IMG/VR virus record: IMGVR_UViG_3300017751_000092
Span: 1-33,834 of that record
DNA: 33,834 nt
Reading direction: 5' to 3' (one strand)
Origin: a virus
The notes below the pieces were generated by a model. The model did no database searches and was not told where the DNA came from. It saw only the letters and a list, made by a program, of their open reading frames with translations. The position numbers and the translations under genes were made by a program. Of the stretch, positions 952 to 21,422 are shown one piece after another (position 1 is the first letter of the stretch; each line of letters opens with the position of its first letter).

Positions 952-2037
952 ATGTCTACAACTCATACTCAAATCGTGCCTGATGATATCATTCCCATCC
1001 TTGAACGTTCAACTAAAGCAGGCAACAAGAAGCCGCCGCTGTTCCTTGGGTGGTATGGTATGGCCAAGTCGCTGATGGTCAAGCGTTTCTGCGAGCAGAA
1101 CGATTACCATCTCATCGACTTCCGCATCGCCTACAAGACGTTCAACGATGTAAGGGGTTTCCCGATGCCGAACCGTGAGACCGGAATCATGGAATGGTTT
1201 CCTGACGAAGATTGGGACTTCCACCCTACCAAGCGTAACGTGGTCCTGTTCGACGAGGTCGGGCAAGGAGCTACCTCAACCTTCAAAGCGTCTATGCAAG
1301 CCGTGCTTGACCGCCGTGTCGGTAAGATGATGTTTCCTGAAGGCACTATTGTGTGTGCCGCTAGTAATAAGCTGGACCAGAAGACAGGTTGTCAGCGTAT
1401 GCCAGCAGCATTGGTGGATCGTTTCGCGGTCTATGATGTGCGCCCTGACATCGGCGGATTCCAGAGATACCTTGAGAAAGAAGGTAAGTCTCCCGAAGTG
1501 CTGGCGTTCATCAATGCGAACAGCGATGCGCCTTACAACTTCAAACTAGACGACTGGACTGGTGAGGAGAACTTGCCTACCTTCCGTAGCTTCGGCCGTC
1601 TCGATGAGCTTGTGGCCAGCTACGACTCAGCAGAGGAGGCGTCATCTGACCCCCTCCTAGTGCCTCATGCACAGTCTTGTGTCGGGCCAAAGTATGGCAC
1701 GATGTTCGCTTCCTTCCTCAAGCTCGCCAGCAAGGTGGGTGACGTAGGTAGGATGGTTGACGAGTGTCGCACCTGTAACATCCCTACGGAACCCAACCTG
1801 CAATGGTTGGTGGCCTGTCGCCTCATCACGTTGGCTAACAAGGAGAACATCAAGAATGTCCTCACACTTGCCCAGCGTCTCTCCACCCCTAACGACCCAG
1901 ACTGGAAGTCCCGCAAGGAACCGTCCATGATGCAGATGTTTGTGGGTAATGGCCTACGTCGTCGCAGATCGGACTTGCATCGGACTGAGACTATGCTTAG
2001 TTGGTTGTCACATTATGGTGAGTTCCTCGTTGATTAA
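952..2037 (+). CDS. MoxR/CobS-type AAA+ ATPase
   Basis: A 361-residue AAA+ ATPase of the MoxR class, which uses ATP to remodel protein complexes, usually with a VWA-domain partner. Walker A is GWYGMAKS at residues 33-40, with the Ala before the Lys found in many MoxR proteins. Walker B is VVLFDE with Asp101 and Glu102. A sensor-like segment GTIVCAASN and the VDRF segment near residues 155-160 follow. The last 150 residues form a helical lid region. The next gene encodes a VWA protein with a complete MIDAS, the usual partner. Phage homologues are often labelled cobaltochelatase CobS-like, but nothing here points to cobalamin synthesis. The ATG follows the SD-less leader. Confidence 0.88.
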   Translation: MSTTHTQIVPDDIIPILERSTKAGNKKPPLFLGWYGMAKSLMVKRFCEQNDYHLIDFRIAYKTFNDVRGFPMPNRETGIMEWFPDEDWDFHPTKRNVVLFDEVGQGATSTFKASMQAVLDRRVGKMMFPEGTIVCAASNKLDQKTGCQRMPAALVDRFAVYDVRPDIGGFQRYLEKEGKSPEVLAFINANSDAPYNFKLDDWTGEENLPTFRSFGRLDELVASYDSAEEASSDPLLVPHAQSCVGPKYGTMFASFLKLASKVGDVGRMVDECRTCNIPTEPNLQWLVACRLITLANKENIKNVLTLAQRLSTPNDPDWKSRKEPSMMQMFVGNGLRRRRSDLHRTETMLSWLSHYGEFLVD

Positions 2038-2407
2038 GTTGGCCAAGCCCCCTGCAAACCCACCCTCTATTCTGAGGGTGGGGTGGGACGTAGATGTTGT
2101 CAATCTAGTGCGGTGGTTGCGAGCTTATGCTCCTGACCACTACACCAGAAGTGGCTCCAACTACCTCATATCGGAGGAGGCTAACAACATTCCCGTGGAT
2201 GTCATGTCCACCCAAACACAAATACTAAAACTAACACAAAAACAAAATGAATGCCGAAAAGAAAGTAGAATACGGAAAACGTCAGGTGGTAACCCACCAC
2301 GACTTCTTTGGGCCAGCCGTAATGGCGATGCCTTGGAAACCAGACAACAGCGTCCCCACGGCTTGCACCGATGGAACGTCTGTTCGATACAATCCGTCCT
2401 TCGTTGA
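2015..2407 (+). CDS. Possible small gene filling the MoxR-VWA gap
   Basis: An open frame of 130 codons begins with an ATG inside the end of the MoxR gene, crosses the whole 209-base gap and ends 160 bases inside the VWA gene. The part within the gap encodes a protein-like sequence (for example DVVNLVRWLRAYAPDHYTR), whereas the part beyond about 2205 runs through the A-rich leader and the next gene and does not look natural. Either a real small gene has lost its stop, or the frame is open by chance. There is no family match from inspection and no ribosome binding site. Confidence 0.22.
   Translation: MVSSSLIKLAKPPANPPSILRVGWDVDVVNLVRWLRAYAPDHYTRSGSNYLISEEANNIPVDVMSTQTQILKLTQKQNECRKESRIRKTSGGNPPRLLWASRNGDALETRQQRPHGLHRWNVCSIQSVLR
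2059..2082 (+). other. 9-bp GC-rich hairpin between MoxR and VWA genes
   Basis: CCCACCCTC at 2059-2067 and GAGGGTGGG at 2074-2082 form a perfect 9-bp stem with a six-base loop, 21 bases after the MoxR stop. No T-tract follows, so it is not a canonical intrinsic terminator. It could pause transcription, protect a processed mRNA end, or lower expression of the downstream gene. Confidence 0.55.
2208..2246 (+). promoter_or_regulatory. SD-less ACAAATAC leader of the VWA gene
   Basis: ACAAATAC lies at 2218-2225, followed by an AACTAAC string and an A-rich run directly before the ATG at 2247. There is no Shine-Dalgarno sequence. Here the octamer is 21 bases from the start, against 1-4 bases in the other three copies. 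Confidence 0.45.
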
Positions 2408-3536
2408 CGGGCTTACCAAAGCCCAGACCGTTGGGCTTGTCATCCATGAACTGTGCCACCCCTTGTTGGGTCACCTTGAACGGTTGGCTACTCAGTTCAA
2501 GACTGAACACCGTAAGGCGAATATCGCGGCTGACTATGAGTTGAATGGGTTTATTACCTCATACAACAATGACGCTGCTATACCTGTGATCCTACCACCT
2601 GACGGTTGTCTCGATGTCGAGAAGTGGGGGACACTATCGGCTGAAGCGATCTTCAAGAGTCTGGAGCTACCCGACCCACCACCACCACCCAAGCCACCTA
2701 CTAACCCAGATGGCGACGACGAAGGTGGTAACGACGGCGACGACGAAGGTGGTAACGGCGGTAACGAAGAAGGTGGTAACGGCGACGACGAAGGCGGTAA
2801 CGGCGGTAACGACGAAGGTAAAAGTGATGGCAAAGGCGGCAGCAGTGCTGGCGAGTTTGAGATCCCTAAGAACCCTAAGGACGCTAAAGAACTCAACGAC
2901 AAGTGGCGTGAGTTACTAAGCTCATGTATCCAAACCGCCAAGCTACGTGGTAGTGCAGGTGGGGACTTCCTGAAGAAGCTGGAGGGACTCTACGATACCC
3001 CACTCAGTCTCGAAGAGATCCTTAGCAAGTATGTCAGTGAGTTCTGTATTGGTGACGAAAGTACCCGACCCGACCGCAAGTTCCTCGCTGTGCATGACAT
3101 CTGTATTGCTGGAAATGAGGATGAACGGCACGGCACTTTGGTGTTCGTCCGTGATACCTCCGGTTCTATGGACTCTAAACTCATGAGTAGCGTTACGAGT
3201 GTTGTTCAGCAAGCGAGTAATGAACTCGACTTTGAGAAGATTGTGGTCATCGACGCTGATGCCAGCGTCTGCGATATCGTCGAGTATGGACCCGCCGACA
3301 AGATCAGTCTCGACTACAAAGGTGGTGGCGGCACTAACTTCTGCCCCGCCCTCAAGTATGTCGAGGATAATGTTGAAGATGCCCGTGTTGTTATCTACTT
3401 GACTGACGGCTATGGCGAGTTCCCTGATCACGAACCCCCAACCCCAACCTTGTGGGTCACTTATGGCCTTAGTGAATCCCGCTTCCCTTTCGGTGAGACG
3501 ATTAGCCTCACCGAAATCCTCAAGGCCCAACAGTAA
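2247..3536 (+). CDS. Metallopeptidase-like N-domain plus VWA-like protein (DUF2201/CobT-like)
   Basis: A 429-residue protein with two parts. The N-terminal part carries HELCHPLLGH, giving His67, Glu68, His71 and His76, as in the DUF2201 N-terminal metallopeptidase-like domain. An acidic Gly/Asn/Asp/Glu linker spans residues 155-191. The C-terminal VWA-like domain has a complete MIDAS metal site: DTSGS (Asp303, Ser305, Ser307), Thr363 in GGGGTNF, and Asp387 in LTDGYG. In known MoxR systems the VWA partner recruits the substrate to the ATPase, so with the preceding gene this is probably an ATPase-adaptor pair. Peptidase activity is possible but unproven. CobT-like is a common label for the same architecture in phages. 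Confidence 0.85.
   Translation: MNAEKKVEYGKRQVVTHHDFFGPAVMAMPWKPDNSVPTACTDGTSVRYNPSFVDGLTKAQTVGLVIHELCHPLLGHLERLATQFKTEHRKANIAADYELNGFITSYNNDAAIPVILPPDGCLDVEKWGTLSAEAIFKSLELPDPPPPPKPPTNPDGDDEGGNDGDDEGGNGGNEEGGNGDDEGGNGGNDEGKSDGKGGSSAGEFEIPKNPKDAKELNDKWRELLSSCIQTAKLRGSAGGDFLKKLEGLYDTPLSLEEILSKYVSEFCIGDESTRPDRKFLAVHDICIAGNEDERHGTLVFVRDTSGSMDSKLMSSVTSVVQQASNELDFEKIVVIDADASVCDIVEYGPADKISLDYKGGGGTNFCPALKYVEDNVEDARVVIYLTDGYGEFPDHEPPTPTLWVTYGLSESRFPFGETISLTEILKAQQ
2711..2819 (+). repeat. Short imperfect tandem repeats encoding a G/N/D/E linker
   Basis: Units such as GGCGACGACGAAGGTGGTAA recur with small changes across about 109 bases inside the VWA gene and encode GDDEGGN and GGNDEGG variants. The frame is kept throughout, so this is a flexible acidic linker whose length may vary between relatives by slippage. 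The opposite strand stays open by the same repetition. Confidence 0.85.
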
Positions 3537-4626: not shown

Positions 4627-5253
4627 ATGAGAACCATTAATAATATTACAGATAGACAAGTCCGTAACAGGCTACGTAAATGGCGTAGCCTCGCTACAGA
4701 GGAGCAGGTTAAAGCTGGCCGTGTTTGGTATGGCGAAGCAGAGGAGGTGGCTAACTCAATAGCAGAAGTGACTGGTATTGATACGTTCACCGCTGCTGCC
4801 GTCATCGCCGCTCTTTCTCCTCGTAACAAGTGGAAACGTAACACACATGACGCATGGGAGTTGTGCAAAGCATGGGCTAAAGGCGAGGAACAGGACTCTG
4901 TTACCGTCTGCACCTTCCACGCTAACCGTGACAAGGCGTGGCGGATACTGGAGGGGGAGAAGGATGTACTTGCGACCTCACCGAAAGTGTCTGCCTTCGC
5001 TGACACCATCGTCAATGGCGTCATGTCACAGTCAATCGTAGTCGATGTCTGGCACACCAGAGCGTGTATCGTGACACCGAACGAGGGTGTGGTCGATTGC
5101 CAAGCCTCACCTACGGCGGCTCAGTATAGGAGATTAGAAGAGATTACACTTGAAGAAGCGAACCTTTTAGGTGAGTATCCTTGTGAATACCAAGCTACCA
5201 TTTGGTGCGCGATTCGCGACAAATGGGAAACACAAAGACGACATGGAAACTAA
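4627..5253 (+). CDS. HhH-GPD-like DNA glycosylase candidate (uncharacterised phage family)
   Basis: A 208-residue protein of a family common in phages and usually annotated as unknown (I recall the label DUF7178, not certain). Recognisable features are the helix at 51-63, the SPRNKWKRN block at 64-72, TSPKVSAF at 117-124 and VVDVWHTR at 138-145. The last two resemble the helix-hairpin-helix and catalytic segment of endonuclease III-type glycosylases (LPGVGxKTA, about 20 residues, then VDTHxxR): Lys120 and Asp140 would be the equivalent lysine and aspartate. If so, it would excise or recognise modified bases. The start lies 5 bases after the preceding gene and there is an 11-base overlap with the next. 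Confidence 0.6.
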   Translation: MRTINNITDRQVRNRLRKWRSLATEEQVKAGRVWYGEAEEVANSIAEVTGIDTFTAAAVIAALSPRNKWKRNTHDAWELCKAWAKGEEQDSVTVCTFHANRDKAWRILEGEKDVLATSPKVSAFADTIVNGVMSQSIVVDVWHTRACIVTPNEGVVDCQASPTAAQYRRLEEITLEEANLLGEYPCEYQATIWCAIRDKWETQRRHGN

Positions 5254-5491: not shown

Positions 5492-5817
5492 TGGGCCGCC
5501 GTAAAAGGTGGAGGGTTGTCGATTATAAACACCAAACAACGGAGAAGGAGGAGACACTGAGGGAATACTTCAGAGACAACCTCCTTCTCCACCCTTCTCT
5601 GTATTACGACTTATCAAATACCCAGCCATACATCGGTTATGCTGCATGGCTGGGTATCAATTTCCTTCGGATGGATTACAAGTCCGTCGGACATGCCCTA
5701 GAGATAAGCCCATACAGATGCAAAAAACTGATAAGCAAAGTTGAAGAATTCAGATACCCTTACTCGCCCGAAGGCTTGAAGGGGTTCATCAATCGTCTTC
5801 CAACGTCACAAGTGTAG
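5491..5817 (+). CDS. Small protein with possible helix-turn-helix
   Basis: A 108-residue basic protein starting MGRRKRW, with its ATG overlapping the preceding stop. The C-terminal half (YKSVGHALEISPYRCKKLI, about residues 68-86) has the spacing of a helix-turn-helix, so DNA binding is possible. Its last 29 bases overlap the 3' end of the giant gene on the opposite strand, so the two transcription units collide here without any visible terminator between them. Not assigned to a family. Confidence 0.6.
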   Translation: MGRRKRWRVVDYKHQTTEKEETLREYFRDNLLLHPSLYYDLSNTQPYIGYAAWLGINFLRMDYKSVGHALEISPYRCKKLISKVEEFRYPYSPEGLKGFINRLPTSQV

Positions 5818-8800
5818 GATATCGATCAAGCACTTCATACATGATACGGAGTCTCTCGGTGCCAGTTGCGCCGAGAGACTTCATGTCTTCTACGAAGGAA
5901 GAACTGAGAGTTGGGACTCTCATAAGACCTCTGGCTAGATTAGCCCGTCTGTCTTTACCAATACCCAAGTATTTCTCGTTGAGAACATTTCTCTTCATCT
6001 GAGGTGTAAGTCCGAACGCCTCAAAAGACTTGAGACCAGATAAGATCTTCTTGTCAATAGCGCGTCGGTTCTCGACGTAGTCTTTGGTTAGCTTCTCAAG
6101 CTCCCCTTTAGTCATTGAGCCGCGTGTTTTCGCTTTGTTAAGTTTCGAGTCGAGTCGGTTCCTCAGATTTCTGTAATGATTGAGGTAAGTGGAGGTAGCG
6201 CGGACGGGGTCAACCCTATTACCCCTTACAGGGTAGAATTCTCTAGCGAGAATAGCCCCTGCGGTTTTATCAGGGTCAGTGGGTTCATCCCCTACAGCCG
6301 CCATACCAGCTTTTCTTAACGCCTTGAACGTCCGTGGCTCGAAGGAGTTCTCGTAAATGTATTTCATAATCTTTGCGGGGATCATGAAACCATCACCCTC
6401 CTCATAGATTGGGTCACCTGTCGCGTCGTCTTTGTTGACGAAGGCATCTTTGATGGCAGCAGCGAATATCTGGTCATCCGCGTAACTCGAAAAGAACATA
6501 CCTGTTGCCTTGACGAGACCCTCTTGGAACTCACCTCTCATCATGTGTTCTGTGAGACGGAGGGCGGGTTCCGCGTAGTCCGAGACTGGCAAAAGGAAGG
6601 TGAATGGGTATGCAATTATGGTCCCCTCGTCGTCGCGGTAGTAGAGGAAGGTCGCATTCTTGTGGTAGAGCGGGACAGTCACGCGGAAGTTTTCATCCTC
6701 TTCTTCCCCAATACCATAAAGCATCCTCAGGGCGGTTGGTAAGACCATACCAAAACCAACCGCTACCGTAGAAAGACCAACGGCCCTCTGGTATCCTCGG
6801 CTCCTGATGACCGCGTTTTTGCTTTTTATATCACGGACAATAGTTTTAGGAACGCCATCAAACGTAATACGCAGCATGTCAGTCTTGAACCCTAAGAAGG
6901 GCGCCAGTAAGTATCCATACTTAGATGAAAGCCCTTTAACCAGTTCGTATCTGTCTTTGTAAGACTGAGATGTTCTACGGACATTGTGGGCGGCTTCTGT
7001 TTCGATTTCGTATTCATTGTAGCTAGCGAAGTCCCCGACATTCCCATTTTCCTTGTCCCACTGAACTGCCTTTTTATAGACCTTCACCTCATGCTCGAAG
7101 TAAGCTATCTTGTAGAAGGCATCCACCCTTTCGGATAAGAGCAGCGCCCTGTCGAGTATCTGGCTCTTAATCCGTTGGCCCGTTTTGGAGTCAGCCGCCT
7201 TTTTGGTGACCGCTTTTAGTTTGTCAAATAAGCCGTTAAGTTCCTTGTTAGCCGCGTCAGGATCGAAGTCACTATCAACAATGTCGCGTATCAGCCCTAC
7301 GGTGATGTCACCTCCTAGCACGTTGTGTGCGATAAGCTTCGCTTCATAGTCCGTGATCTCCTTCATTCTAGTAGGAGATAGTCTGAAAGAGCGTCGCAAT
7401 GCCTTGATCGATTTCATTGCGGTGACCGGAGACATACCGTTCATCGGGGCGAAGAACAGTGCGTTGCCTAACACATTTCGGATATAGAATCCAAACGACC
7501 CCAAAGTCTTGGCGGCTAGTGAGATTCCCGTGAGCGATCTGACAAGACTCACTGCTGACTCTACCGCTTGTTTGTCCGGCGAGAGCGAAGAGACACTCGG
7601 CTCTGGTCTGAATTGGTTCTTAATGTGGGTAAATGCGTCTGAAGGAATGTAGTATTCAGCTCTTATATCATAGGTCTGCTCCACTTCGTCCTCGATTGAT
7701 TTAGCGACTTCCGCCTTGTATGCGTAGGGGTCTCCCGTTCTTATGTTTAACATGGAGGGGGCGGGTAAGGCCTTGCCCTCTAGTCGAAGGGTATCCAGTT
7801 CTTGCTGCGTGAAGACGAACCCTGCATCAGGGTTGTCTTTTTGGTGTCCAAGTTGAATCAGGTTCTTAATGAAGGACTGTTTAGATGCGGCCCTGTTAAT
7901 AGCATCAATGGAGCGCACCACATTATTGACCACGTCCGACTCATCGTATTGTCCGAGAAGATTACGGAAAGGTTCAGGAATATCCTGCCTCCTCCTCACC
8001 TGATCAAAGATGGCCCGTGTCATGCCTTGGGCGGGTTTGGTTACCTGATTCACGCTCCCGTATCGTGTATCCAGAGACTGGAGGTAGGCAGTGATAGCCT
8101 CCCTAACCTGAATCTGACCCGTTTTCGAATTAAGCTGAATCCGTCCTTCTTCTTCCAACCTCAATTTCGCCACCCGCTTGTTAGGTGGGATATTATTCGC
8201 CCTCTCCTCGCTTTGTTTGTCGCGGACAAACTGCCGGATAAACTGACTCTCGATGTATTCGTGAGCCCTATGGTAGCCTTCTACCATCTGTGCGTCTCCA
8301 GCACTCTCTTGGCCGGAAGCAACCATAAGTAACTTATCGAGATAACCTTCTTCAGTGAATGCCCTGTATTGCCTTGTGACGTAGATACCGAGATTGCGGT
8401 CGATGACCATTTTTAGGTTACCGTTGACATCGTATTGTTCTGAGAACACTTTAGATAACGCATCTAAGTGGTCCCGCATGTTTTTTAACGCCCTGTATAA
8501 TTTGGGTTTCGTCTTCTCGATCTTAGCGGCGGCTGCGTCCTTCTTACGGATCAAGCCTTCCCGAACCTTTTTTTGGTAAGCCTCAAGAGGTTTGTCGTAG
8601 TATTCATTCTTTAGAGCCTTGTAGTCGATGGGCTCTGTCGTCTCACCTCTCCGGCGTCTCTCTTTCTCGATTGCAATCCGCCGGATATGCTTATTGTGGA
8701 GATCTTCCATCACGGCGTCGTCAGGAGTCAAGTTGTCGGGTCTACCTAAGTAGTCAGCGAGGATGTCGTTAGTAACATCTGGGTTCTTCTCTAGAAGATC

Positions 8801-11800
8801 CATGATAATCGCGGCATCACTAATAACTTTCTGGGTCACACCATTACTGACAGCCTCTGACTGTAGTTTAAGCTCCAGAACTCTGCGGTCGGTGTCCCCG
8901 TTTAGGAACCTCATGAGCCCCTTGTTAGGGGTGTATTTCTTCTTCTCAAATACTCCGTCAGCGATCTCGTAAACTTTTAGATGAGAGAACCTCTTGTAGA
9001 TGTCCTCAAGACTGGTGTTCTCATCAATCTCTATATCAGGGTCACCCGCGAAGGTAGCGGCCAAACGCTGGTTCAGGTTTTCAAGAGACTCGTTGGGGTT
9101 GTTAACATCAAACCGCGACACAGTAGGTTGGTAGAAACTTCCTCGGCGTAGTAAGTTAAGTTCGTTAGCCATCGCGTTGATCGCGGCAGCCATGTATGGG
9201 TTCTCCTTGCGGAGGTTATACCTCGCATACATTTTACGGAACACGTTAGTCAGGTAACGGAAAAGGATACGAGCGAAGGACGGTTCACCCATGTAGAAGG
9301 CGATGTCCTCCTCAGTGGTCGAACCACGCATGATCTTCTGGGCAGACATGCGTAGCTTCTCCCCAACGATCTGGCGTTTGATTATCGCGTCGTTCTCTGC
9401 GATACCTTTGTTGAGTCTATCTCTCAGACCCTCGTTATTGCTTTTAGCTGTATACTGAGATACGATCTCCGCAAGTGTGCTGTCCGACAAGGAGTTTACT
9501 ATAGTGTCTAGTTCCTCGGTAGAAACTGTCCTGAACTCAGCGACATGGATAAACTCTTCACTGAGCAGGGACTCAATGAGCATCTTAGTTAGTTTAGGCG
9601 TGAAGAGTTCTCCTCCTGTCTCAGCTAAGTAAGACTCCAAGTTAGCTTGGTTGATGAACATGGTAGGGATGCCTACCCCGTCCTCCTCGACAATCGTTGA
9701 CATGAAGGCAGCTTCAGGGTCATCCTCTAGCGGAGTGCCTGTGATGTCAGATACTAACTTTACAGGAACATTAGATGGGATGACCTGAGCCACGGTCTGC
9801 TCAAGGATCTCTAGTAGTTGTGCTTGTCCTTCTTCATCCAGAGTGGCTCCAGTATCAAGACCAGAGAAACTTGATAACCGAATATCATCCGATTCAAAAT
9901 CGAACCGCTGGCTCAGTGGGATCACGTTGCCGTCAGCGTCGCGAGTGATAGGCTCGGAGGATTTGATTTGGTTAGGGTTAGCCACCACAACTTCTTTGAA
10001 GTCTCTCTCACCGTCTGATTTGCTGTGGTCTACAACTATCGCAGACACAACTTGATCAAGTAGGAAGTTAGCGTCATTCCGCGTGTTTTCTGATTTGAAT
10101 CCCGCCCCCGCGTATGTGTCAACATTTTCCAAATCTCGCTGGATGGTTCCCCCTCTAACCTCCTCCAATGATTCCGGTCTTTTGCCCCCAACTGATTTGT
10201 AGGCGGTATTCACAGCATCTTGATAAGATAACCATTTCTCGAAACGATCCTCCAATCCGTTCTCTCTTATGTATTTATTGATCCCACGCGTTCCATCAAG
10301 AAATATGGGGTTATCTCCGAGGTCGATAGCCAAGTCATCCACGCGACTTTCCAATGATTTATCATTGCGTTCTGGGCCAGTAAGAGGGCCAGCAAACTGT
10401 CTTACATCCTCTTTTTTCCCATCTAAGATAGCGTAAAAACCAGACCCAAGCAATCCTCTCTTACTGGGCATAAGGGGGACACCGTCACGGTAAACCCCTG
10501 CTCTCACGCCTTTTGCTTTGTAGTTTGAATTCTGTATGGCTTCATCCACCAGCTTGCGCTGTGTCTCAACATCGCCAGACTCAACCGCTGCCAGATACTC
10601 AGCGTCGAGGGGGGTGAGTTCTGTAGGAGATACTTGTTTAACATCCTCCAAGAAATCGCTGATGTATTTACCTTCCGGTGAATCCCTTTTAAACTCATAG
10701 GTCTCGATAAAGGTATCGAGCTTCGCGAGTGGCGTCAGGTTCTCAGCGACGTCCATGTTAACGAAGTCGACCAGATCATCGAAGGCCTGTGCAAGCCTTG
10801 TGCCCTTGCCTAGACCGACTAGGTCCTTAACGATGTCGACGAACCGTTGAATGAGTCCCCTACGAGGCATTGTCCTGACTTGGTTCTGGAACGCCGACGA
10901 GGTGAACATCGTGGAGATAAACTCTGACATGTTGGCTAAACCATAAGTGACCTCTAGCTTCTCTTTACCGCCCAGTTCCAGAGAGCGGGTGTATTCTTTC
11001 TGGACGATCTTACGGAGTCCTTCCAGACGTTGGATAGCCGCCCTTTGTTTAGGGGTAAGTTTCGCTCTGTCTGTTTTAAGGAGCTTGTCTGTAAGAGCGT
11101 GGAGATATTCGTGGAGAATAATAGACTCCACACCACTACCGTAATATCCTGCGGTGTTGAGGGTGACTCGACTCGTCCCGTCCGTGAACACTTCAAACGC
11201 GCCAGCCTGCGCGTCCTTATCCTTCTTGATAAGGAACTCAGACCCTAAGATCACGTCCTGATTTTTAAGGAGCAACTTCGCGATAGTTCGGTGTGACTCA
11301 TCTACACCTGACTTGGAGATCTCTTTGAGAGCCACGACAACGGAAGCGGGGTCTCCATTAACAAGACCTAGTCTTTCGATATCCTCTTGGTTGCGGTTAA
11401 CGACCGCCTCAATCTCCAGACCTTGGAACCAGTTAGGGGCATTATCCTTTGAGGCTATCATACGAGCTTCACCGAAATATTCCTCTAGGCGTGCTTCTTC
11501 ACTGGCGGGTGGGTTGTATCCTCTTACGTAGAACATCGCCTTCACGGCATCTGGAAGTTGCTTGAATACGGTTTGATAACGCCTTTCGGATTCAACGGTC
11601 TTGGAACCAATTGTGTCTGGTAGTTCTCGGGATATTCTGGCTCCAGTAGGGACCGTTTTACGGCCGCCAATGTATCGTAGATTTTCGAGTAACTCCTCCC
11701 GCTCACGACCTTTTAAGCCCTCAAGTTCTTGTAGGCTCATTGAAAACAACTCACCAACTTCCTTAGGGAGGTCCCTATAATTATTGTCTCCCCCTTCAGG

Positions 11801-14800
11801 GGCTACGGGTTCTTCTACGGCCTGCTCTGAATCCTGCTCCGCTTGGGTCTGGAAGGACGCCGTGTCTGCCATTTGATCGACGCCGAGTTCTCCCGCGCTA
11901 ACGAGTGGGTTGTTATAGACGAATTTAGATACCTGTTCGTTAATAGAATTACCGGCCCTAGTGGCTGCTCGTAAGAAGTTAGGGAAAGGGGATGTCTTGT
12001 CGGCGGGGTTGTAAGGGCTATAGTTAATTAACTTTTCTAAGGCCCTCTTAATCACGAAGTGTTCCCAGTTCTTCGTTAACTTATACTGGCTACCTCCCTT
12101 AGCGATATTTCTTTCTTCCAACGCCCTTACGCTCGTCATCTCAGCTTGAGTAGCGTTCCCGAAGTTTCCTTTACCACGATTCGTAACATAAAGGAAAGTA
12201 GCAAGTTGCTGGAGCTTGCTAGTTTTAGACGATAAGACAAGGTCCGTTTCAGGCGTTGTTGTTCTCCCGATGTGGACTGACTTGCCTTCTTCTAACATCT
12301 CAGTCTGGAACCACTTAGATATCCGTTCCATAGGGAACGCGGCCATGATAGCGTTGGTCACGTCGGTCTCTTCTTCGCCTAGCCTACCCTTAACGATACG
12401 TGATTCAGGGTCGCCTCCAACTGTTTTAGTCGGGTCAATTTCAGCAAACAAACCCTCCTTAAAGGAGTATACGGGCTCACCTTCTTCGGACACATTCACT
12501 TCCACAAATTCTCCGTCAATTAGCATCTGCCTAAGGCCAGCTACCTTTACCGCTAGGTTTAGTTCGTAATAAAACTTAGCCGCCGCTTTCCCGAAGAGGG
12601 CGTCTGCATCGACCAGTCCCTTCCTCCCGATCAGGTAGAGTTTAGTAGCGGTCGCGAACTTACGTCCTACAACGGAGTTTCGTTCAGCCATCCCTGCGTA
12701 GTTTTCATTAAACCAATTTTTAATCTTAGGGAGGGCATCTTTTAGTTTCGTGGGGCCGTGTAAGACGAACTGGTTCCCATCGAAGTCCAACCCATCTTTG
12801 GCCATCTTTGTGAGGATCTTGCCTTTCTTGGTGGCCGCTGCCTGATAATCTGCGACTGCCTTTTGGTATTCTTCTTCGGTTTTGAAATTCTCCTCAAGAT
12901 CTTCTAATGGGGCATTTTCCGACTCGCCCTCCGGTATCAAGGAATTTTCTAGGATCTCAGCGTCCGCTATTTCATCCATGATATCTTTATTATCACTTGT
13001 AAACTTAGGGTAGAACCCTGAGATGTTGAAATCCCGAACAACGGTTTCCATTACTTCTGCATCGACCCCTTCGCGAGAGAGCCCCTCGAATAAATACTCG
13101 GTGAGGAGGGCTCTCGCTCTATCCACTTCCGTGATTTCAGACGACTTGTCGCGAGCCGCTTTATTTAAGATAACAGGGTTCCCAGTAAGGGGGTCAATCC
13201 CTTTGACGAAGTCGACCTTGTTGTCGGTTACGACAATCGATTTGTTGTATCCCTTTACCTTCTCGATGCCTTCGGGAGTATTGATTTTGTGTCCGTCGTC
13301 GCGGAGGGCTTTAATCGTTTTGGGGTCGTTGTTAAAAAGAAAGGTTCCCTGATACTTTAACCCTTTTTTAAAGACCTCGATGTCCTTTGGGTCCTTTATC
13401 TTATAGAGTTCCGCAACTTTTTTTACAGTGAATACTGGGTATCTCTTCTCAATATTCTTTTTAAGTTTCGCCTTAAACTCTGCTATTTGGGGCTTTGTTA
13501 ATTGAGGAAACCCATACTGACCAGAGTTTATAGAATGGGGGAATCCTTTTTCAGAGAGAATCTGGAGGGCGTTATTAGCTTGTTGTGACGCTTTTTCTTT
13601 AGAGTCTACTGGTTCACTGATTCCTAATTTTCCTTCTTCCTTGTTGAGTAGGAACTGAGCTATCCCCCTGTTTTCTGGAGACTGCTCCTTAACCGCTTCC
13701 CTTTTTTGTTTTTCAGAAACTTCGGGCTTCCCTTTTTTCTTAGCTGCTTTCTTAGCGGCAGTCTTCTTAGCTGCTTTCTTAGCGGCGGTCTTCTTAGCGG
13801 CGGTCTTCTTAGCGGCGGTCTTCTTAGCGGCGGTCTTCTTAGCGGCGGTCTTCTTAGCCGCTTTCTTAGCAGCAGTTTTCTTCTTAGCTGGTGGCGTAGC
13901 GGGTTCCTCAACTACCTTTACTACTTTCTTAGAAAAGTCGTCGAGAACCTCTTGTTTATCCTCTAATCCCTTGTTTTCGATGGTGGATAAGTAGTCATTG
14001 ATTTCGGACTGCTCTTGCGCGGCTCTCTCCTCTTCTTGCAACTTCTGCTGCTGCTGCGCTGCGGTCTTTTCATCCGCTGCTGCGACTTCGGCGTCTTCTG
14101 CTGTAGGTTCTGTAGGTTCTGTAGGTTCTGTAGTCTCTGAAGACTTTTTAGGGTCTTTAGCACTGTCGGCTGAAACCTGTTCCCCTTTATTTATAATCTC
14201 CTGTAACTTCTCACCTACCGCGTCGGCTGTTTCAGGGCTACCTACTTCTTCTAACCTACGGACCATGTCATCACGAACCTGCTCTCCCATGAGCCTACGG
14301 GACTCCACCTCATCGGCATCAGTAGCCCCTGAAATCCGGCTAAAGATTCGCCGAGACGTCTGCATTCCAGCACCAAATATTCCACCATAAAAAGCGGCGG
14401 TTCCGGTGTGGGCCATCAGTTCTCCAAAGTTTAAGTCGTCTCTCGCACCAGCGGCGGCTTGGATAAGGGTATTGACGTATTCATCGAGCCCCTCTTCAAG
14501 TGCCTCATCTCTAAAACCCCTAGCCGCGGCGGTGGCTCCTCTGGGAATGGTTATTGCGTTAAAGTATTTAGGTGCGTGCTTCCTAGTAAGAGCCCCTAAG
14601 ATTTGTCCGAACTGACTCTTGGTTAGGAGATCATCAGAAGCGGACAGTCCTTTAGCTAGAACCGAAAACATTCTCCTTGCTTCCCCTACCGTAGCGCGTG
14701 TCATGAGGTAACTCTCAAGACCACCTAAACCTCCTAGGGTAAAAGCAGAAGTAATCGCTCCCGTAGCGACGGCTGCTACGAGTCCTGTTTTCAAAGCCTT

Positions 14801-16729
14801 CTGGTGTCTTTCCTCGTCACTAAGTGCTTTCCCTTCTTCAGTCTTACTCAGTGCGTCATACACAGATGCGTAGGTCATGGTTCCGCTGCGGGTTCCAGCG
14901 GTGATAAAGATGCTCGACACGGTAGGCACCTTAGAGTGAAGCATCTTTGTGTAAGCTTGGATAGCTGTCTTGGCGTTAGCTGTAGTCGCTTCTTTAGCCA
15001 CTTCTTTAGCGGACATGAAACGGCCAAGTTTATTGCGTTTCTTAACTCCTTTTTTGACTCCGACTTTGCGGATGAGATCCCTTGATACTCTTTCTGCCGC
15101 TCCCTCTAACGACTCCCCCACGCCTTGGCGTAAGCTACCTTTAATGGCTGTGTTGAGTAAGCCTTTAGCGGTGAGCCTAGTGCCTAAGTAAGCGGCGGTG
15201 CCGACTCCGGCGGTGGCTTTAGTGATTAGCGCGGTAGCCCCAACGTCCACAACAACGGGGGCTATCATAGAAGATAAGTCGATACCCATGCCTACGTTCT
15301 CCCCCATAATTTGAGCGAGTCTCCGTTTAGCCTGTCGGTCTCTTTCGTTTTCAAGTAATGCCTCTCTAGCATAACTATTATTATTCATCGCCCCAATGCC
15401 CCATACAATATCAGTAAATGATTCATGGATGGAATTACCGACGAGCCCTAAGACCTCGTTCCTGAAATATCCGTAGGCCTCCTCATCATGTTTCTCCGTG
15501 AAATCATCTAGGATCTCCCCGTTAGTCATGTTCTTGAGTTTTCCTTCTGCAACAGCCTCCTCCCATTCTTCAGCTAAGTAAGTGCTAGCAAACACTTGGC
15601 TATACTCAGGAAAGGCGGCGTCGCGGAAAATCTCGCGATTTGCTCTAAGTCTTTCTTTCTCTGATTCAGATAGACCAGAGATTGTTTCTTCAAAGACTTT
15701 GGTGTTTTCCATCGCCTGAGGGTGGACAACCGCTTGTCCTAAACCAAATCGGCTCAAGTTGTTGGTGAAATCTTCCTCATCATACTCAGTGTGTCTAAGA
15801 GACCTACTACCTACGTGGTAGTCGAGGGCTGTCAAGAGATCCACTTCGGGAATCTCTCTGGCGGCGGGTATCTGTTCTTTGAGTTGCCCAATCACGAAAG
15901 AGGCGTCTAGCTCATCTAGCTCGCCCGTCTCCGCCATAGACTCGGCCATACTATCCATCACGTCGAAGATTAGCTCATCTTCTACCTGAGCGAATACGGT
16001 TAAAGCGTCGGAGACGTTCTCATATCTGAAAAACTCATACCCTAGTTCGTCCTTCTGTTGCCCTGCAAAAATAAACTTCGCGTCTTCGCCTTTAATCATC
16101 CCACTATCTAGGGACTTTTTGTAGGCTTCGTAAGGGTCTAGGCCTATCGCGCTTTCTCCACCAATTAGGGTGATGCTACCGTCCTCAGATTCTACACGGG
16201 CGTATGGGGTAAGGTCCTTTGCGACGGCTGTTCTCGCGGCTTTATTATAATACTTATTAACGAAACTCTCAGCGGCCTCTCGTTTAGCTTGTTTACTTGT
16301 TTTTAACTCAAGTGCTATATCATCATCAAACCCCTCTAAACCCTCATCCGCAATGTGGGCGTATTTCATGGCGCTAATAACGCTAGTATCGTCCTCCTCA
16401 TCGGTCGACAAGTAGCCTGCGCCTAAGACCATGTCTACAATCTGAAACTTATCGTCAAAAGTAATCGGAGATGGTGAGAGTATTTTCTCAAACTCCTCTT
16501 GGACAGGGATGTCGAGAGCGGCGGCTCTGGCCTCGATGACAGGGCCCTCAACCTCTACGAGGGCGCGGACGGTTGATTCGTCGATAGTTTGGTCGAGTTC
16601 TAGCGAATACTCTTTATTTTTTAAATACTCCCCCCGAAGGTAATTAGAATATTGTTTCCTTTTTTCAATAGGGTCGACAATGGGTCCGCTCGATGGGGAC
16701 CATTCTTGGAATGGAGTAATTTCAGACAT
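5789..16729 (-). CDS. Giant polyvalent virion-type protein with zincin and ART-like domains
   Basis: A 3646-residue protein, one third of the window. It resembles the large polyvalent proteins of phages, thought to be packaged and delivered with the DNA. In order: an acidic helical N-terminus; a Gly/Ala-rich hydrophobic region about 480-810, including EALEEGLDEYV; a TEP-repeat and Gln/Glu-rich linker about 860-910; a Lys/Ala histone-H1-like tract 948-1001; unassigned domains to about 1800; a zincin motif HEYLH at 1873-1877, with SEF downstream offering a third ligand; a PARP-like ADP-ribosyltransferase-like segment with GSGFYAI (Tyr2099) and KEVVVANPNQIKS (Glu2246); a degenerate zincin-like EEFIH at 2391-2395; then C-terminal segments typical of polyvalent proteins, with FYIRNVLGNALF near 3070 and a membrane-like stretch about 3310-3340. 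It is last in the terminase-led block. No lytic transglycosylase or RNA polymerase motif was found. Confidence 0.85.
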   Translation of the reverse strand: MSEITPFQEWSPSSGPIVDPIEKRKQYSNYLRGEYLKNKEYSLELDQTIDESTVRALVEVEGPVIEARAAALDIPVQEEFEKILSPSPITFDDKFQIVDMVLGAGYLSTDEEDDTSVISAMKYAHIADEGLEGFDDDIALELKTSKQAKREAAESFVNKYYNKAARTAVAKDLTPYARVESEDGSITLIGGESAIGLDPYEAYKKSLDSGMIKGEDAKFIFAGQQKDELGYEFFRYENVSDALTVFAQVEDELIFDVMDSMAESMAETGELDELDASFVIGQLKEQIPAAREIPEVDLLTALDYHVGSRSLRHTEYDEEDFTNNLSRFGLGQAVVHPQAMENTKVFEETISGLSESEKERLRANREIFRDAAFPEYSQVFASTYLAEEWEEAVAEGKLKNMTNGEILDDFTEKHDEEAYGYFRNEVLGLVGNSIHESFTDIVWGIGAMNNNSYAREALLENERDRQAKRRLAQIMGENVGMGIDLSSMIAPVVVDVGATALITKATAGVGTAAYLGTRLTAKGLLNTAIKGSLRQGVGESLEGAAERVSRDLIRKVGVKKGVKKRNKLGRFMSAKEVAKEATTANAKTAIQAYTKMLHSKVPTVSSIFITAGTRSGTMTYASVYDALSKTEEGKALSDEERHQKALKTGLVAAVATGAITSAFTLGGLGGLESYLMTRATVGEARRMFSVLAKGLSASDDLLTKSQFGQILGALTRKHAPKYFNAITIPRGATAAARGFRDEALEEGLDEYVNTLIQAAAGARDDLNFGELMAHTGTAAFYGGIFGAGMQTSRRIFSRISGATDADEVESRRLMGEQVRDDMVRRLEEVGSPETADAVGEKLQEIINKGEQVSADSAKDPKKSSETTEPTEPTEPTAEDAEVAAADEKTAAQQQQKLQEEERAAQEQSEINDYLSTIENKGLEDKQEVLDDFSKKVVKVVEEPATPPAKKKTAAKKAAKKTAAKKTAAKKTAAKKTAAKKTAAKKAAKKTAAKKAAKKKGKPEVSEKQKREAVKEQSPENRGIAQFLLNKEEGKLGISEPVDSKEKASQQANNALQILSEKGFPHSINSGQYGFPQLTKPQIAEFKAKLKKNIEKRYPVFTVKKVAELYKIKDPKDIEVFKKGLKYQGTFLFNNDPKTIKALRDDGHKINTPEGIEKVKGYNKSIVVTDNKVDFVKGIDPLTGNPVILNKAARDKSSEITEVDRARALLTEYLFEGLSREGVDAEVMETVVRDFNISGFYPKFTSDNKDIMDEIADAEILENSLIPEGESENAPLEDLEENFKTEEEYQKAVADYQAAATKKGKILTKMAKDGLDFDGNQFVLHGPTKLKDALPKIKNWFNENYAGMAERNSVVGRKFATATKLYLIGRKGLVDADALFGKAAAKFYYELNLAVKVAGLRQMLIDGEFVEVNVSEEGEPVYSFKEGLFAEIDPTKTVGGDPESRIVKGRLGEEETDVTNAIMAAFPMERISKWFQTEMLEEGKSVHIGRTTTPETDLVLSSKTSKLQQLATFLYVTNRGKGNFGNATQAEMTSVRALEERNIAKGGSQYKLTKNWEHFVIKRALEKLINYSPYNPADKTSPFPNFLRAATRAGNSINEQVSKFVYNNPLVSAGELGVDQMADTASFQTQAEQDSEQAVEEPVAPEGGDNNYRDLPKEVGELFSMSLQELEGLKGREREELLENLRYIGGRKTVPTGARISRELPDTIGSKTVESERRYQTVFKQLPDAVKAMFYVRGYNPPASEEARLEEYFGEARMIASKDNAPNWFQGLEIEAVVNRNQEDIERLGLVNGDPASVVVALKEISKSGVDESHRTIAKLLLKNQDVILGSEFLIKKDKDAQAGAFEVFTDGTSRVTLNTAGYYGSGVESIILHEYLHALTDKLLKTDRAKLTPKQRAAIQRLEGLRKIVQKEYTRSLELGGKEKLEVTYGLANMSEFISTMFTSSAFQNQVRTMPRRGLIQRFVDIVKDLVGLGKGTRLAQAFDDLVDFVNMDVAENLTPLAKLDTFIETYEFKRDSPEGKYISDFLEDVKQVSPTELTPLDAEYLAAVESGDVETQRKLVDEAIQNSNYKAKGVRAGVYRDGVPLMPSKRGLLGSGFYAILDGKKEDVRQFAGPLTGPERNDKSLESRVDDLAIDLGDNPIFLDGTRGINKYIRENGLEDRFEKWLSYQDAVNTAYKSVGGKRPESLEEVRGGTIQRDLENVDTYAGAGFKSENTRNDANFLLDQVVSAIVVDHSKSDGERDFKEVVVANPNQIKSSEPITRDADGNVIPLSQRFDFESDDIRLSSFSGLDTGATLDEEGQAQLLEILEQTVAQVIPSNVPVKLVSDITGTPLEDDPEAAFMSTIVEEDGVGIPTMFINQANLESYLAETGGELFTPKLTKMLIESLLSEEFIHVAEFRTVSTEELDTIVNSLSDSTLAEIVSQYTAKSNNEGLRDRLNKGIAENDAIIKRQIVGEKLRMSAQKIMRGSTTEEDIAFYMGEPSFARILFRYLTNVFRKMYARYNLRKENPYMAAAINAMANELNLLRRGSFYQPTVSRFDVNNPNESLENLNQRLAATFAGDPDIEIDENTSLEDIYKRFSHLKVYEIADGVFEKKKYTPNKGLMRFLNGDTDRRVLELKLQSEAVSNGVTQKVISDAAIIMDLLEKNPDVTNDILADYLGRPDNLTPDDAVMEDLHNKHIRRIAIEKERRRRGETTEPIDYKALKNEYYDKPLEAYQKKVREGLIRKKDAAAAKIEKTKPKLYRALKNMRDHLDALSKVFSEQYDVNGNLKMVIDRNLGIYVTRQYRAFTEEGYLDKLLMVASGQESAGDAQMVEGYHRAHEYIESQFIRQFVRDKQSEERANNIPPNKRVAKLRLEEEGRIQLNSKTGQIQVREAITAYLQSLDTRYGSVNQVTKPAQGMTRAIFDQVRRRQDIPEPFRNLLGQYDESDVVNNVVRSIDAINRAASKQSFIKNLIQLGHQKDNPDAGFVFTQQELDTLRLEGKALPAPSMLNIRTGDPYAYKAEVAKSIEDEVEQTYDIRAEYYIPSDAFTHIKNQFRPEPSVSSLSPDKQAVESAVSLVRSLTGISLAAKTLGSFGFYIRNVLGNALFFAPMNGMSPVTAMKSIKALRRSFRLSPTRMKEITDYEAKLIAHNVLGGDITVGLIRDIVDSDFDPDAANKELNGLFDKLKAVTKKAADSKTGQRIKSQILDRALLLSERVDAFYKIAYFEHEVKVYKKAVQWDKENGNVGDFASYNEYEIETEAAHNVRRTSQSYKDRYELVKGLSSKYGYLLAPFLGFKTDMLRITFDGVPKTIVRDIKSKNAVIRSRGYQRAVGLSTVAVGFGMVLPTALRMLYGIGEEEDENFRVTVPLYHKNATFLYYRDDEGTIIAYPFTFLLPVSDYAEPALRLTEHMMRGEFQEGLVKATGMFFSSYADDQIFAAAIKDAFVNKDDATGDPIYEEGDGFMIPAKIMKYIYENSFEPRTFKALRKAGMAAVGDEPTDPDKTAGAILAREFYPVRGNRVDPVRATSTYLNHYRNLRNRLDSKLNKAKTRGSMTKGELEKLTKDYVENRRAIDKKILSGLKSFEAFGLTPQMKRNVLNEKYLGIGKDRRANLARGLMRVPTLSSSFVEDMKSLGATGTERLRIMYEVLDRYPTLVTLEDD
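13776..13850 (-). repeat. 15-bp tandem repeat encoding KKTAA units
   Basis: Five perfect copies of the plus-strand unit TTCTTAGCGGCGGTC lie end to end, flanked by diverged copies across 13727-13888. On the coding strand they give (KKTAA)n and KKAA units, residues about 948-1001 of the giant protein. The tract resembles the C-terminal tails of histone H1-like bacterial proteins and is strongly basic, suited to DNA or RNA binding. The uniform copies suggest recent expansion. Confidence 0.9.
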
Positions 16730-17824: not shown

Positions 17825-19165
17825 CTAAGTTCTCCTAGATCTAGCCTCTCGTAAAATTACCTCTACTGGTGTGAACGCTATAGGTCTATAAGTAGAGGTT
17901 CCTCCTGTCATACCTAAAAGTTCATCGTCCTCCTCAGTCCTTCCTACTGTTCCTTTTGACCCTCTAGCGCCACTACTACCACTACTACCAGCGGCCTTTT
18001 GGCCTGCTTCAAGGGTGTCTTTTAGCACCTCCCTTTTCTGCATATTCCTATCCAATTCCGCTTTCTTGGTCGCTGGTGTAGTAATATTGGGTTGGCCTGC
18101 CCTTATCTGGGCTGCTTGTAATAGTAAAGCTCTCCTGACAGCGGGGTCTTTTATCCTTCTGGCCTCTCTCTCTATTTGATTAGCCTTACGGCGTTCGACA
18201 CCTTCTAAAGGCTTGCTATCTTCCAATAAAGGGGAGGTTGGTTTGCCCTCGTTGAAAGCCTCTTTAAACTTGGGGTCTTGGCGTGCTGCTAACCCTTTTA
18301 ATCCTTGTCCGGTCTCCTGAAAGTATTTGACCCTCTCAATGGCTTCTTCTTGTGTCGTGGCAGCAGGCAACGCACTGAACCCGTCTTTTCCCTTTGTAGG
18401 TAAATAATCAAAAAAGCTTTGAGGAGGTTCAGTTTTCGCGGTAGCAGTAGTAGTAGACCCATCCGCTGGAGGTTCTGTTGGAGGTTCTGCTGGTGTAGTC
18501 GTCGGAGCAGTTGTTTGAGTAGTCGTCGGAGCAGTTGTTTGAGTAGTCGTCGGAGCGGTTGTTTGAGTAGTCGGCTGGCCTACAGTTCCTGCCTTGCCTA
18601 TTGCACCTATAGGACCTGATGCGCCTGTAGGGTCAGGGATATTGCTAGAAGTTGTTGTTGGGTCAGTCGTGACGCTTGAAGAAAATGTGGTTGTATCACC
18701 CATACCAGTTCTTCCGATATTCGAAGGCCCACCAGATAAACTACGTGGTGCGAAGTAATCACTACTACCGACTGCCGGAGAATTTGAGTCATCCATGCCA
18801 GTTCTTCCGATATTCGAAGGTCCGTCAGATAAACTACGTGGTGCGAAGTAATCGCTACTACCGACTGCCGGAGAACTTGAGTCATCCATGCCAGTTCTTC
18901 CGATATTCGAAGGCCCACCAGATAGACTACGTGGTGCGAAGTAAGCGTCGCTACCGACTGCCGGAGAATTTGAGTCATCCATGCCAGTTCTTCCGATTTT
19001 TGAAGGCCCACCAGATAGATTACGTGGTGCGAAGTAAGCGTCGCTACCGACCGCTGCGGGGTCCCCACTAGATCCTTTGTTACCTCTAGCGCCCTTCAAG
19101 GCTCCTGCCTTAGAGGGTCTCGAATCGGGAGACTTGTTTTTTTCCTTGTCGTCTTTTTTAGCCAT
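17825..19165 (-). CDS. Repeat-rich low-complexity protein, probably structural
   Basis: A 446-residue protein starting MAKKDDKEKNK. Residues 38-157 hold four copies of a 31-residue unit of the type SDYFAPRSLSGGPSNIGR, followed by a Ser/Thr-rich region with GxxG triplets (GPIGAIGKAGTVG, near 180-195). A threonine-rich tract of QTTAPTTT units spans about 200-235. The C-terminal 200 residues are more ordinary and charged, ending with a Gly/Ser-rich SSGSSGARGSKG segment and a basic tail. It looks like a flexible virion protein or decoration/linker. It lies between the small basic protein gene and the 354-residue gene with gaps of 1-2 bases. No enzyme motif is seen. Confidence 0.65.
   Translation of the reverse strand: MAKKDDKEKNKSPDSRPSKAGALKGARGNKGSSGDPAAVGSDAYFAPRNLSGGPSKIGRTGMDDSNSPAVGSDAYFAPRSLSGGPSNIGRTGMDDSSSPAVGSSDYFAPRSLSDGPSNIGRTGMDDSNSPAVGSSDYFAPRSLSGGPSNIGRTGMGDTTTFSSSVTTDPTTTSSNIPDPTGASGPIGAIGKAGTVGQPTTQTTAPTTTQTTAPTTTQTTAPTTTPAEPPTEPPADGSTTTATAKTEPPQSFFDYLPTKGKDGFSALPAATTQEEAIERVKYFQETGQGLKGLAARQDPKFKEAFNEGKPTSPLLEDSKPLEGVERRKANQIEREARRIKDPAVRRALLLQAAQIRAGQPNITTPATKKAELDRNMQKREVLKDTLEAGQKAAGSSGSSGARGSKGTVGRTEEDDELLGMTGGTSTYRPIAFTPVEVILREARSRRT
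18495..18566 (-). repeat. 24-bp tandem repeat, three copies
   Basis: The unit GTAGTCGTCGGAGCAGTTGT plus four further bases is repeated three times, the last with one base change. It encodes QTTAPTTT on the minus strand and so preserves the reading frame of the low-complexity protein. Confidence 0.85.
18695..19054 (-). repeat. 93-bp in-frame tandem repeat, four copies
   Basis: Four near-identical 93-base units (the last slightly short) encode a 31-residue motif with the core FAPRxLSGGPSxIGRTGM. Copies differ at a few positions, for instance Ser-Asp-Tyr versus Asp-Ala-Tyr near the start and Lys versus Asn before IGR. Because 93 is a multiple of three, both antisense and shifted frames stay open, giving false reading frames. 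Confidence 0.92.
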
Positions 19166-19582: not shown

Positions 19583-19636
19583 ACTTTAAAGAAAAGTTTT
19601 TATCTATGTAGGGAAATAATTACCGCACCAAAGACT
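19567..19636. repeat. Direct repeat of the palindrome half-site
   Basis: AATTACAGCACCAAAGACT at 19567-19585 recurs as AATTACCGCACCAAAGACT at 19618-19636, with one difference and a 51-base shift. The second copy touches the stop codon of terL. With the inverted arm at 19548-19558 this makes three copies of one element within 90 bases. Confidence 0.8.
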
Positions 19637-21422
19637 AGCTCAACAAAGTCGTATTTGGGTTGTTCAGCGCCCCACTCAAGCTCTTAATTGTAACCTGTTT
19701 CCTGAATCCCGCATCCTTCTCGTCTTTCGGTGGGTCGATGGCCACTAACCCCATACGCTGACGAGCGCAGTCGAGGGCCAGAAACGCAGCATCCGCCAAG
19801 TCGGGTGACCTACCAAACCGTGCCTTGAACTCTATCTTGGATTCAATCTTCACCTTCAGGGAACCAGTTTTCACCATATCGTAGTTTCTGGCACACATCT
19901 CTTGTGCGAGATCAGAGGAGACCCCATATATCTGCCTCGTCCGCATAAGCTCCTTACCTACGAACCAGAGTTCTGATACCCTATTAGTGTATAATTCCTC
20001 TCCAGTAAGCTGGCTGTTCATACTGACCCGCTTGTCCGAAGCCTTACCACCGAACGTCACCCGCATAAAGGAACTCTCCCACTCACCAGCCAACACGTCG
20101 CAGAATGGCGCACCTGCTCCGGTCGAGTCGAGTGCTACGTTATTAGCAGAGATATTCCTCCGTTTGCAGTGGTCGATAATCTGGTGGACGATCTGGTAGG
20201 TGCGGGGAACCGCTTTATTAGTGGCGTCATCATTTAAGTGGATCGCCTCCCCCAATTTGCAGACGTATTGACCGTTTCGGGCGTAGCCGACTTCAGCGGT
20301 ATACATGATCGTCCTATCGCCCCCGTTAGTGAAGGCGGGGTCTATTCCGGCTACCACTGTCGGTTTTTCGGCCCAATCTACATCGCCAAGTGACCCACTC
20401 TTGGCCATCTCTGCCTCTGAATATATTCCGGTGGTCTCATCTGAATCAAAGAAAATGGCGCGGACCATCCTCATATATCCTCTGGACTCCGGCCCTAATA
20501 ACGCTCTATCCTCCTCCAGCTTCTCAGCGGTGGGTAACCAAGGATACTTAACTTCTCCTAACGTAATGTTCGGACTCCGCTCACCATCCAGTCTAATATA
20601 TTTACCACCCCACTTCGTCTTCCATTCGTCAGCGGTTTGTGTGTCAATAGACTCCCAGCCCTTTTTCGGCTCTGACCAGACACCGAAGGCGTCAAACCTA
20701 CTATTCGGGTTAGACATGCCAATCATTTGGAAGAACGGGTTCTTCGATAAGTTAGTCAGGCCAGCCTGCAAGATGCTCTCAGAGAGTTCTGAAAGCTCGT
20801 CTCCGATCATGATCACCCTCTTCTGCTTGATTCCTATGAATTTTCCGATGGCTTCTCTCGTCTTAGATTTTTCCGCTGCGATAAGCGAAAGACCAGCCCT
20901 CTCGATTAGCGTGCCGTTTTCATCTACATAGGCAGCGTTTCCGATTGAGTCCCGTATCTTGATCGGCGCACCATCGATCACGGACAACAAGGACATCACT
21001 GAACCCCATATCCTTTTTCGTGCTTCCCGTAAGGTAGTCGAGGTCATCAGAACCAGTGTGTCGCGTGGCTGAGATAGCCACTGGACAATACCCCACGCCG
21101 CCATTGTGTGAGACTTACCAGACGACGCGGAACCCCCAATCGCTAAATATTTGTTGTTAAGGGCGGCGCGGATCATCTGCTCTGCCCAAGGATGTCGGAC
21201 CATCATTGGCTCCGGTAGGTCGTCGCGGTTCCAGATTTCGTCACAGATTCTCCAGAAGTAATACTCCCTTGCAATAACCTTAGGGTGGTGGGCAAACCCA
21301 TATAATAACGCCGTAATGAGGCTAGTCGTCTTAATAGCTAGACCACCTACGTCCATATCTTTGGTTGTAGGGTTAACCCTCGGCTCAAGAACTTGCTTGC
21401 TTTTGGAGACCCGTTTGCTCAT
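19635..21422 (-). CDS. terL: Terminase large subunit
   Basis: A 595-residue DNA-packaging motor with ATPase and nuclease domains. Walker A is GSASSGKS at 97-104 (Lys103), Walker B is RVIMIGDE with Asp208 and Glu209, and a coupling-type motif MSNPN lies at 236-240. The RNase H-like nuclease half has Asp361 in VAGIDPAF, Asp432 in VALDSTG and the Asp541/Asp544 pair in SPDLADAAF, which would bind the two metal ions that cut concatemeric DNA. Length is usual for the family. The ATG at 21422 is only 15 bases from the divergent start of the candidate small subunit, so the terL promoter must lie inside that neighbour. It is followed by the palindrome region and the structural genes. Confidence 0.95.
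   Translation of the reverse strand: MSKRVSKSKQVLEPRVNPTTKDMDVGGLAIKTTSLITALLYGFAHHPKVIAREYYFWRICDEIWNRDDLPEPMMVRHPWAEQMIRAALNNKYLAIGGSASSGKSHTMAAWGIVQWLSQPRDTLVLMTSTTLREARKRIWGSVMSLLSVIDGAPIKIRDSIGNAAYVDENGTLIERAGLSLIAAEKSKTREAIGKFIGIKQKRVIMIGDELSELSESILQAGLTNLSKNPFFQMIGMSNPNSRFDAFGVWSEPKKGWESIDTQTADEWKTKWGGKYIRLDGERSPNITLGEVKYPWLPTAEKLEEDRALLGPESRGYMRMVRAIFFDSDETTGIYSEAEMAKSGSLGDVDWAEKPTVVAGIDPAFTNGGDRTIMYTAEVGYARNGQYVCKLGEAIHLNDDATNKAVPRTYQIVHQIIDHCKRRNISANNVALDSTGAGAPFCDVLAGEWESSFMRVTFGGKASDKRVSMNSQLTGEELYTNRVSELWFVGKELMRTRQIYGVSSDLAQEMCARNYDMVKTGSLKVKIESKIEFKARFGRSPDLADAAFLALDCARQRMGLVAIDPPKDEKDAGFRKQVTIKSLSGALNNPNTTLLS

Follow-up and report, generated by a model that had tools for sequence, protein, structure and literature searches.

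A predicted giant ejection protein with a zincin pair and an exchangeable ART-like module in a marine phage clade

The DNA analysed is the IMG/VR virus record IMGVR_UViG_3300017751_000092, positions 1-33,834. This whole stretch of 33,834 bases, called the window below, is probably not a complete genome. A single uninterrupted ORF encoding 3646 aa occupies positions 5789-16729, as the sequence-only reading had claimed, but it lies on the minus strand; stop codons abound on the plus strand. The giant gene, its upstream neighbours and the parts of its protein are as follows.

19635..21422 (-): terminase large subunit (phrog_2, E 7.7e-15)
17825..19165 (-): repeat-rich upstream gene, 446 aa
16759..17823 (-): 354-aa gene directly upstream of the giant gene; a gene of similar size lies there in L002, L003, L004 and L006
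5789..16729 (-): whole gene of the putative giant ejected (polyvalent-type) virion protein, 3646 aa
14180..16729 (-): N-terminal backbone, residues 1-850, conserved in nearly all relatives
13700..13897 (-): Lys/Ala-rich repeat (AAKKTAAKK), residues 945-1010
11420..13699 (-): variable region 1, residues 1011-1770, differing between lineages in the coverage map
10628..11413 (-): zincin domain Z1, residues 1773-2034, from profile matches
11099..11113 (-): HEYLH, residues 1873-1877, in conserved alignment columns
10922..10924 (-): Glu1936, presumed third ligand of Z1, in a conserved alignment column
9899..10615 (-): ART-like cargo module in slot A, residues 2039-2277, with N-cap DAEYLAAVESGD and C-cap NPNQIKSSEPITRDADGNVIPLSQRFD
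10487..10489 (-): Arg2081
10433..10435 (-): Tyr2099
9992..9994 (-): Glu2246
9860..9880 (-): linker RLSSFSG, residues 2284-2290, at the junction of the module and Z2, common to L003
9080..9877 (-): zincin-like domain Z2, residues 2285-2550, from the family alignment
9545..9559 (-): EEFIH, residues 2391-2395, in conserved alignment columns
9359..9361 (-): Glu2457, presumed third ligand of Z2, in a conserved alignment column
5792..9049 (-): C-terminal backbone, residues 2561-3646

The window phage also encodes DNA polymerase A, a DnaA-like protein, a helicase and a PD-(D/E)XK protein. Its terminase has no match among the 50,697 phage records searched, and the clade is without a known isolate in the collections searched; the content of its virions is therefore inferred from distant relatives. 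Terminase relatives were found in 217 stretches of the viral collection, and 80 of them (83-100% identity) were kept. In all 18 related records that were re-fetched, one giant gene lies directly downstream of the terminase gene. Complete giant proteins from these records and from L003, L004 and L006 are 3336 to 5324 aa in length. The relatives are distant, the alignments are our own, and the searches cover the named collections. The product of the 354-aa gene had no match in family searches; by position it is a candidate partner ejection protein, and the 446-aa repeat-rich product is likewise a candidate partner.

Several other genes of the window can be noted. At 952-3536 (+), a MoxR-like AAA ATPase (weak AAA_3 match) stands next to a DUF2201 putative metallopeptidase and VWA protein (HELCH). 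The latter is a free gene of the zincin type, present in 8 of 23 related records, and its product is a possible trans-acting protease. Near the giant gene, on the side of its 3' end, lies a free gene of the DUF7178 family (4627-5253, +); as cargo, this domain recurs within the giant proteins of L004 and L006 and, weakly, of L094. A glycosyltransferase-like gene (Glyco_transf_34, E 5e-17) lies at 22773-23420 (+).

A comparison of 21 giant proteins revealed a common order: the N-backbone (to about residue 850), a variable region that takes in the Lys/Ala-rich repeat, Z1, slot A, Z2, slot B and a C-backbone of about 1000 residues. In the coverage map the two backbones, Z1 and Z2 are conserved and the cargo slots are variable. 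Slot B, between Z2 and the C-backbone, is nearly empty in the window and L003 and reaches about 2000 residues in L006. The 5324-aa member from L006 (2696-18670) contains three cap-bearing ART-like modules, a DUF7178 domain and a further region that looks kinase-like by eye. The cargo region of the 4270-aa member from L094 (6809-9991, -) contains a domain similar to mycobacteriophage L5 gp82 (PF25735, E 4e-6). The Lys/Ala-rich repeat is possibly a histone H1/HC2-like, DNA-contacting segment. Its match to Pfam HC2 (E 1e-7) is below the cut-off, and both this match and an NCBIfam match to valine-tRNA ligase were rejected, being due to the repeat alone. For the whole protein and its segments, Pfam, NCBIfam, PHROGs and PADLOC gave only low-complexity hits beyond the matches cited in this text, no Pfam LPD domain was found, and a PDB search with the N-backbone gave nothing usable as to a known fold.

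All motifs named in the sequence-only reading are found at their places. HEYLH is the single HExxH of the 3646-aa protein, Tyr2099 ends the peptide GSGFY, Glu2246 is within FKEVVVANPNQIKS, and EEFIH begins at residue 2391. These motifs exceed chance: the zincin residues lie in columns invariant in about 20 relatives down to 22-30% identity, and Tyr2099 and Glu2246 do not vary in the three related modules found.

The C-terminus had been described as a set of polyvalent-type segments. The conserved region is real, but it is instead one virion-protein region. The last 780 residues of the giant protein are homologous to Cellulophaga phage phi18:3 gp123 (hhalign 99.7%, E 6e-26; 628 columns aligned with the C-backbone profile), a protein annotated in its record from MS/MS proteomics. 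Nine of 16 C-backbones match phrog_22602, a virion structural protein; a PDB search gave nothing usable. The gp123 protein (1935 aa) shares the C-terminal part with the window protein, whereas neither a zincin nor the N-backbone was detected in it. This homology to an MS-proven virion protein supports the earlier idea of a virion protein that enters with the DNA; by homology, the giant protein would fall in the class of ejection or internal virion proteins. The giant protein is thus very likely present in the virion and, judging from its relatives, would very likely be ejected into the cell. In Pseudoalteromonas phage vB_Pun_Y3 (L119), the relative of the C-backbone is a separate gene of 1027 aa, annotated as ADP-ribosyltransferase and adjoining a giant gene; this is perhaps a split version of the same chassis.

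The zincin proposed at residue 1873 is borne out by profile matches. In the PDB, the family profile of Z1 finds PhiM1 gp48, a tetrameric ejection protein (8VB2, E 1.3e-9), and 9SFN chain G, an internal virion protein (E 4.7e-9; a literature search on 9SFN found nothing relevant). Z1 also matches the N4-type virion RNA polymerase family phrog_2206 (E 1e-9). The C1 domain of this polymerase contains HExxH (PMC12633501) and has been assigned to the zincins (PMC5512222). As read from the sequence, Z1 of the window has both HExxH (HEYLH at 1873) and a downstream Glu (Glu1936). PhiM1 gp48 (1263 aa; PMC11440229) likewise has HExxH with a downstream Glu in its homologous zincin; however, only the zincin part matches, and neither a second zincin nor a cargo module was detected there. 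Across 20 proteins the catalytic Glu, the second His and the downstream Glu of Z1 are invariant; only the first ligand varies, with His in 7 proteins and Glu in the other 13. On the C-backbone tree, built by a quick method and with long branches, these states need one change.

The second, degenerate zincin suggested at residue 2391 gained support from two relatives that carry HExxH (HETIH or HELAH) at this column. The window itself has EEFIH there; the first ligand of Z2 is Glu in 16 of 18 proteins and His in 2, and the other three residues are again invariant (18/18 each). Z1 and Z2 align in register at the motif, although with an hhalign probability of 2.3% (E 0.021), and a PDB search with Z2 gave nothing usable. 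His in both copies was seen in none of the giant proteins examined, and about half of the family lacks it in both. No Z2 motif could be recognised in L096 and L098, where the expected region has no ExxH; Z1 retains HExxH in both. From its conservation, EEFIH is taken as a real zincin-like site, and with the remaining Z1 and Z2 residues so strictly retained, the pattern does not resemble simple decay.

One explanation, which we consider rather doubtful, is that EExxH has been retained as a modified metal site, binding another metal or serving another function. It would account for a change confined to the first ligand, and for a Z1 change that happened once on the tree and was afterwards retained through ten lineages. 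However, the residues may have been kept for packing, and the two proteins without a detected Z2 motif speak against it. The zincin pair could also be purely structural. The earlier suggestion that the zincins attack host targets is doubtful, because both copies lack the first zinc ligand in roughly half of the family members, and because the relatives with solved structures are ejectosome parts.

Alternatively, the zincins may act as peptidases and cleave the giant protein into its separate parts, either inside the head or once it has entered the cell. Processing of polyvalent proteins by their own zincins has been proposed (PMC5512222), and Z1 of the window is complete in HExxH and downstream Glu. 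Nevertheless, this seems unlikely, given the Glu at the first position in most Z1 and Z2 copies and the many proteins altered in both; moreover, linker repeats are retained in exactly a lineage with both zincins altered, and the N4 virion RNA polymerase is packaged uncut (PMC5512222). That intact zincins tend to go with a slot B that is empty (Mann-Whitney p 0.006) was set aside as evidence, as this correlation follows the tree.

The linker repeats are short peptides at module boundaries. RLSSFSG at the Z2 junction is the only one in the window protein. SGIT occurs seven times in the L006 protein (and SGVT once) and LFSAP three times in that of L004 (with LSSAP in addition), mostly at module ends and with codons differing between copies. 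Within the L004 clade, each of the six members with sufficient sequence has one to four copies of hxSAP near slots A and B; outside this clade the motif was found in one giant protein only, at another location. The SGIT count was reached in 0 of 400 shuffles and the LFSAP count in 5 of 400; the motif classes were chosen post hoc, so that these counts are descriptive. Processing is one possible reason for such peptides. When ten further genes of record G016 were checked for a protease acting on the linkers, an endolysin alone was recognised, and a literature search on the boundary motif found nothing relevant. A broader version, to which we give little credence, is a dedicated delivery chassis with two cargo slots in which lineage-specific peptides (hxSAP in one clade, SGIT in another) mark where modules end and are cleaved so that the cargo is released in the cell, the zincins having become a non-proteolytic metal site with a Glu ligand.

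The segment between the zincins had been read as a PARP-like ART. What stands is the end-caps: DAEYLAAVESGD and NPNQIKS...SQRFD are those of Pfam ART-PolyVal modules within the same clade, and in sister phages the same caps enclose modules recognised as PF18760 (L102, 1.2e-4; L109, 4.9e-9, with YHGT). The core itself has no Pfam or PHROG profile match; against PF18760 the module gave none at E up to 10, nor up to 1 in a second search. Comparison of the core with canonical ART cores by hhalign was empty, as was a PDB search with the segment and its profile, and homologues in bacterial genomes showed the caps alone or a weak match. The module lacks the leading His, as was also said before; Arg2081 is at its usual place. 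Arg2081, Tyr2099 and Glu2246, each invariant in three modules of this type, form a candidate R-Y-E triad in place of the H-Y-D active site of PF18760 (PMC5512222). The caps and the Tyr are thus common to both, but ART-PolyVal has His and a final Asp where the window module has Arg and Glu.

We presume that Glu2246 is positioned like the PARP1 catalytic Glu relative to the last strand, which is a lead. An ART activity of the module is plausible. Less probable than not, yet to be taken seriously, is that it is another enzyme or a binding domain within the end-caps common to polyvalent modules. This would fit the unrecognised core, the missing leading His, the empty hhalign comparison and a similarity that comes from the caps. 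On the other hand, the invariant triad falls, in our reading, on the residues of ART strand 1, strand 2 and the last strand, and sister-phage modules in the same caps are PF18760 ARTs.

L002 and L003, with backbones 62-76% identical to that of the window protein, have no such module, yet L004, with a backbone of only 26-28% identity, has the same module in slot A. Over 720 bases the DNA identity between the window and L004 is 90.3%, with the borders at the module ends. Identity at fourfold sites is 81.6% in the module (80/98), 45.5% in terminase (107/235; Fisher p 7e-10) and 21-25% in the flanking zincins, on which ground joint inheritance of module and backbone in the window and L004 was rejected. 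The module has moved between lineages recently. A copy with 56-60% identity is located after Z2 in L006. The dN/dS ratio of the module is 0.22 (window versus L004), which shows purifying selection on it. That the module is neutral baggage of an ordinary giant ejection protein is very improbable: L002 and L003 manage without it, but the ratio since the exchange shows selection.

Our preferred reading, with a probability of about 0.75, is that the giant protein is an internal virion protein packed with the DNA, ejected at infection and serving as a chassis for additional enzyme modules. The ejection or packaging body would consist of the two backbones together with the zincin pair. Z1 has a common origin with the zincins of the N4 virion RNA polymerase and of podophage ejection proteins with solved structures, and Z2 would be a zincin relative with Glu as the first zinc ligand. 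Slot A and, in relatives, slot B would hold interchangeable cargo. The ART-like cargo would most likely be delivered into the cytoplasm and modify a host molecule early in infection.

Among the closest known systems are the polyvalent proteins (Iyer et al. 2017, PMC5512222), likewise giant phage proteins with zincins and ART-type modules beside late genes, for which the N4 virion RNA polymerase with its zincin is a worked example. The marks of this class are several unrelated enzymatic domains within a single polypeptide of a mobile element, near virion genes; the window has the zincin, a candidate ART and the adjoining terminase, and the L102 and L109 modules match PF18760. The family differs in its tandem zincins with a His/Glu exchange at one ligand, its cargo in defined slots and its lack of detected LPD domains. 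In kind, the polyvalent ejected protein is known already; this one comes from a clade without an isolate, shows unusual zincin variants and has clearly exchanged cargo. By description, T4 Alt is placed in another ART clade (R-S-E, PMC5512222).

These results tie predicted polyvalent proteins to virion proteins seen by cryo-EM and mass spectrometry. The sequence data show that cargo modules have travelled from one ejection chassis to another in recent times. Should the module prove active, it would add a further virion-delivered ART to T4 Alt, and with it another way for enzymes to enter along with phage DNA, here in a marine clade without an isolate.
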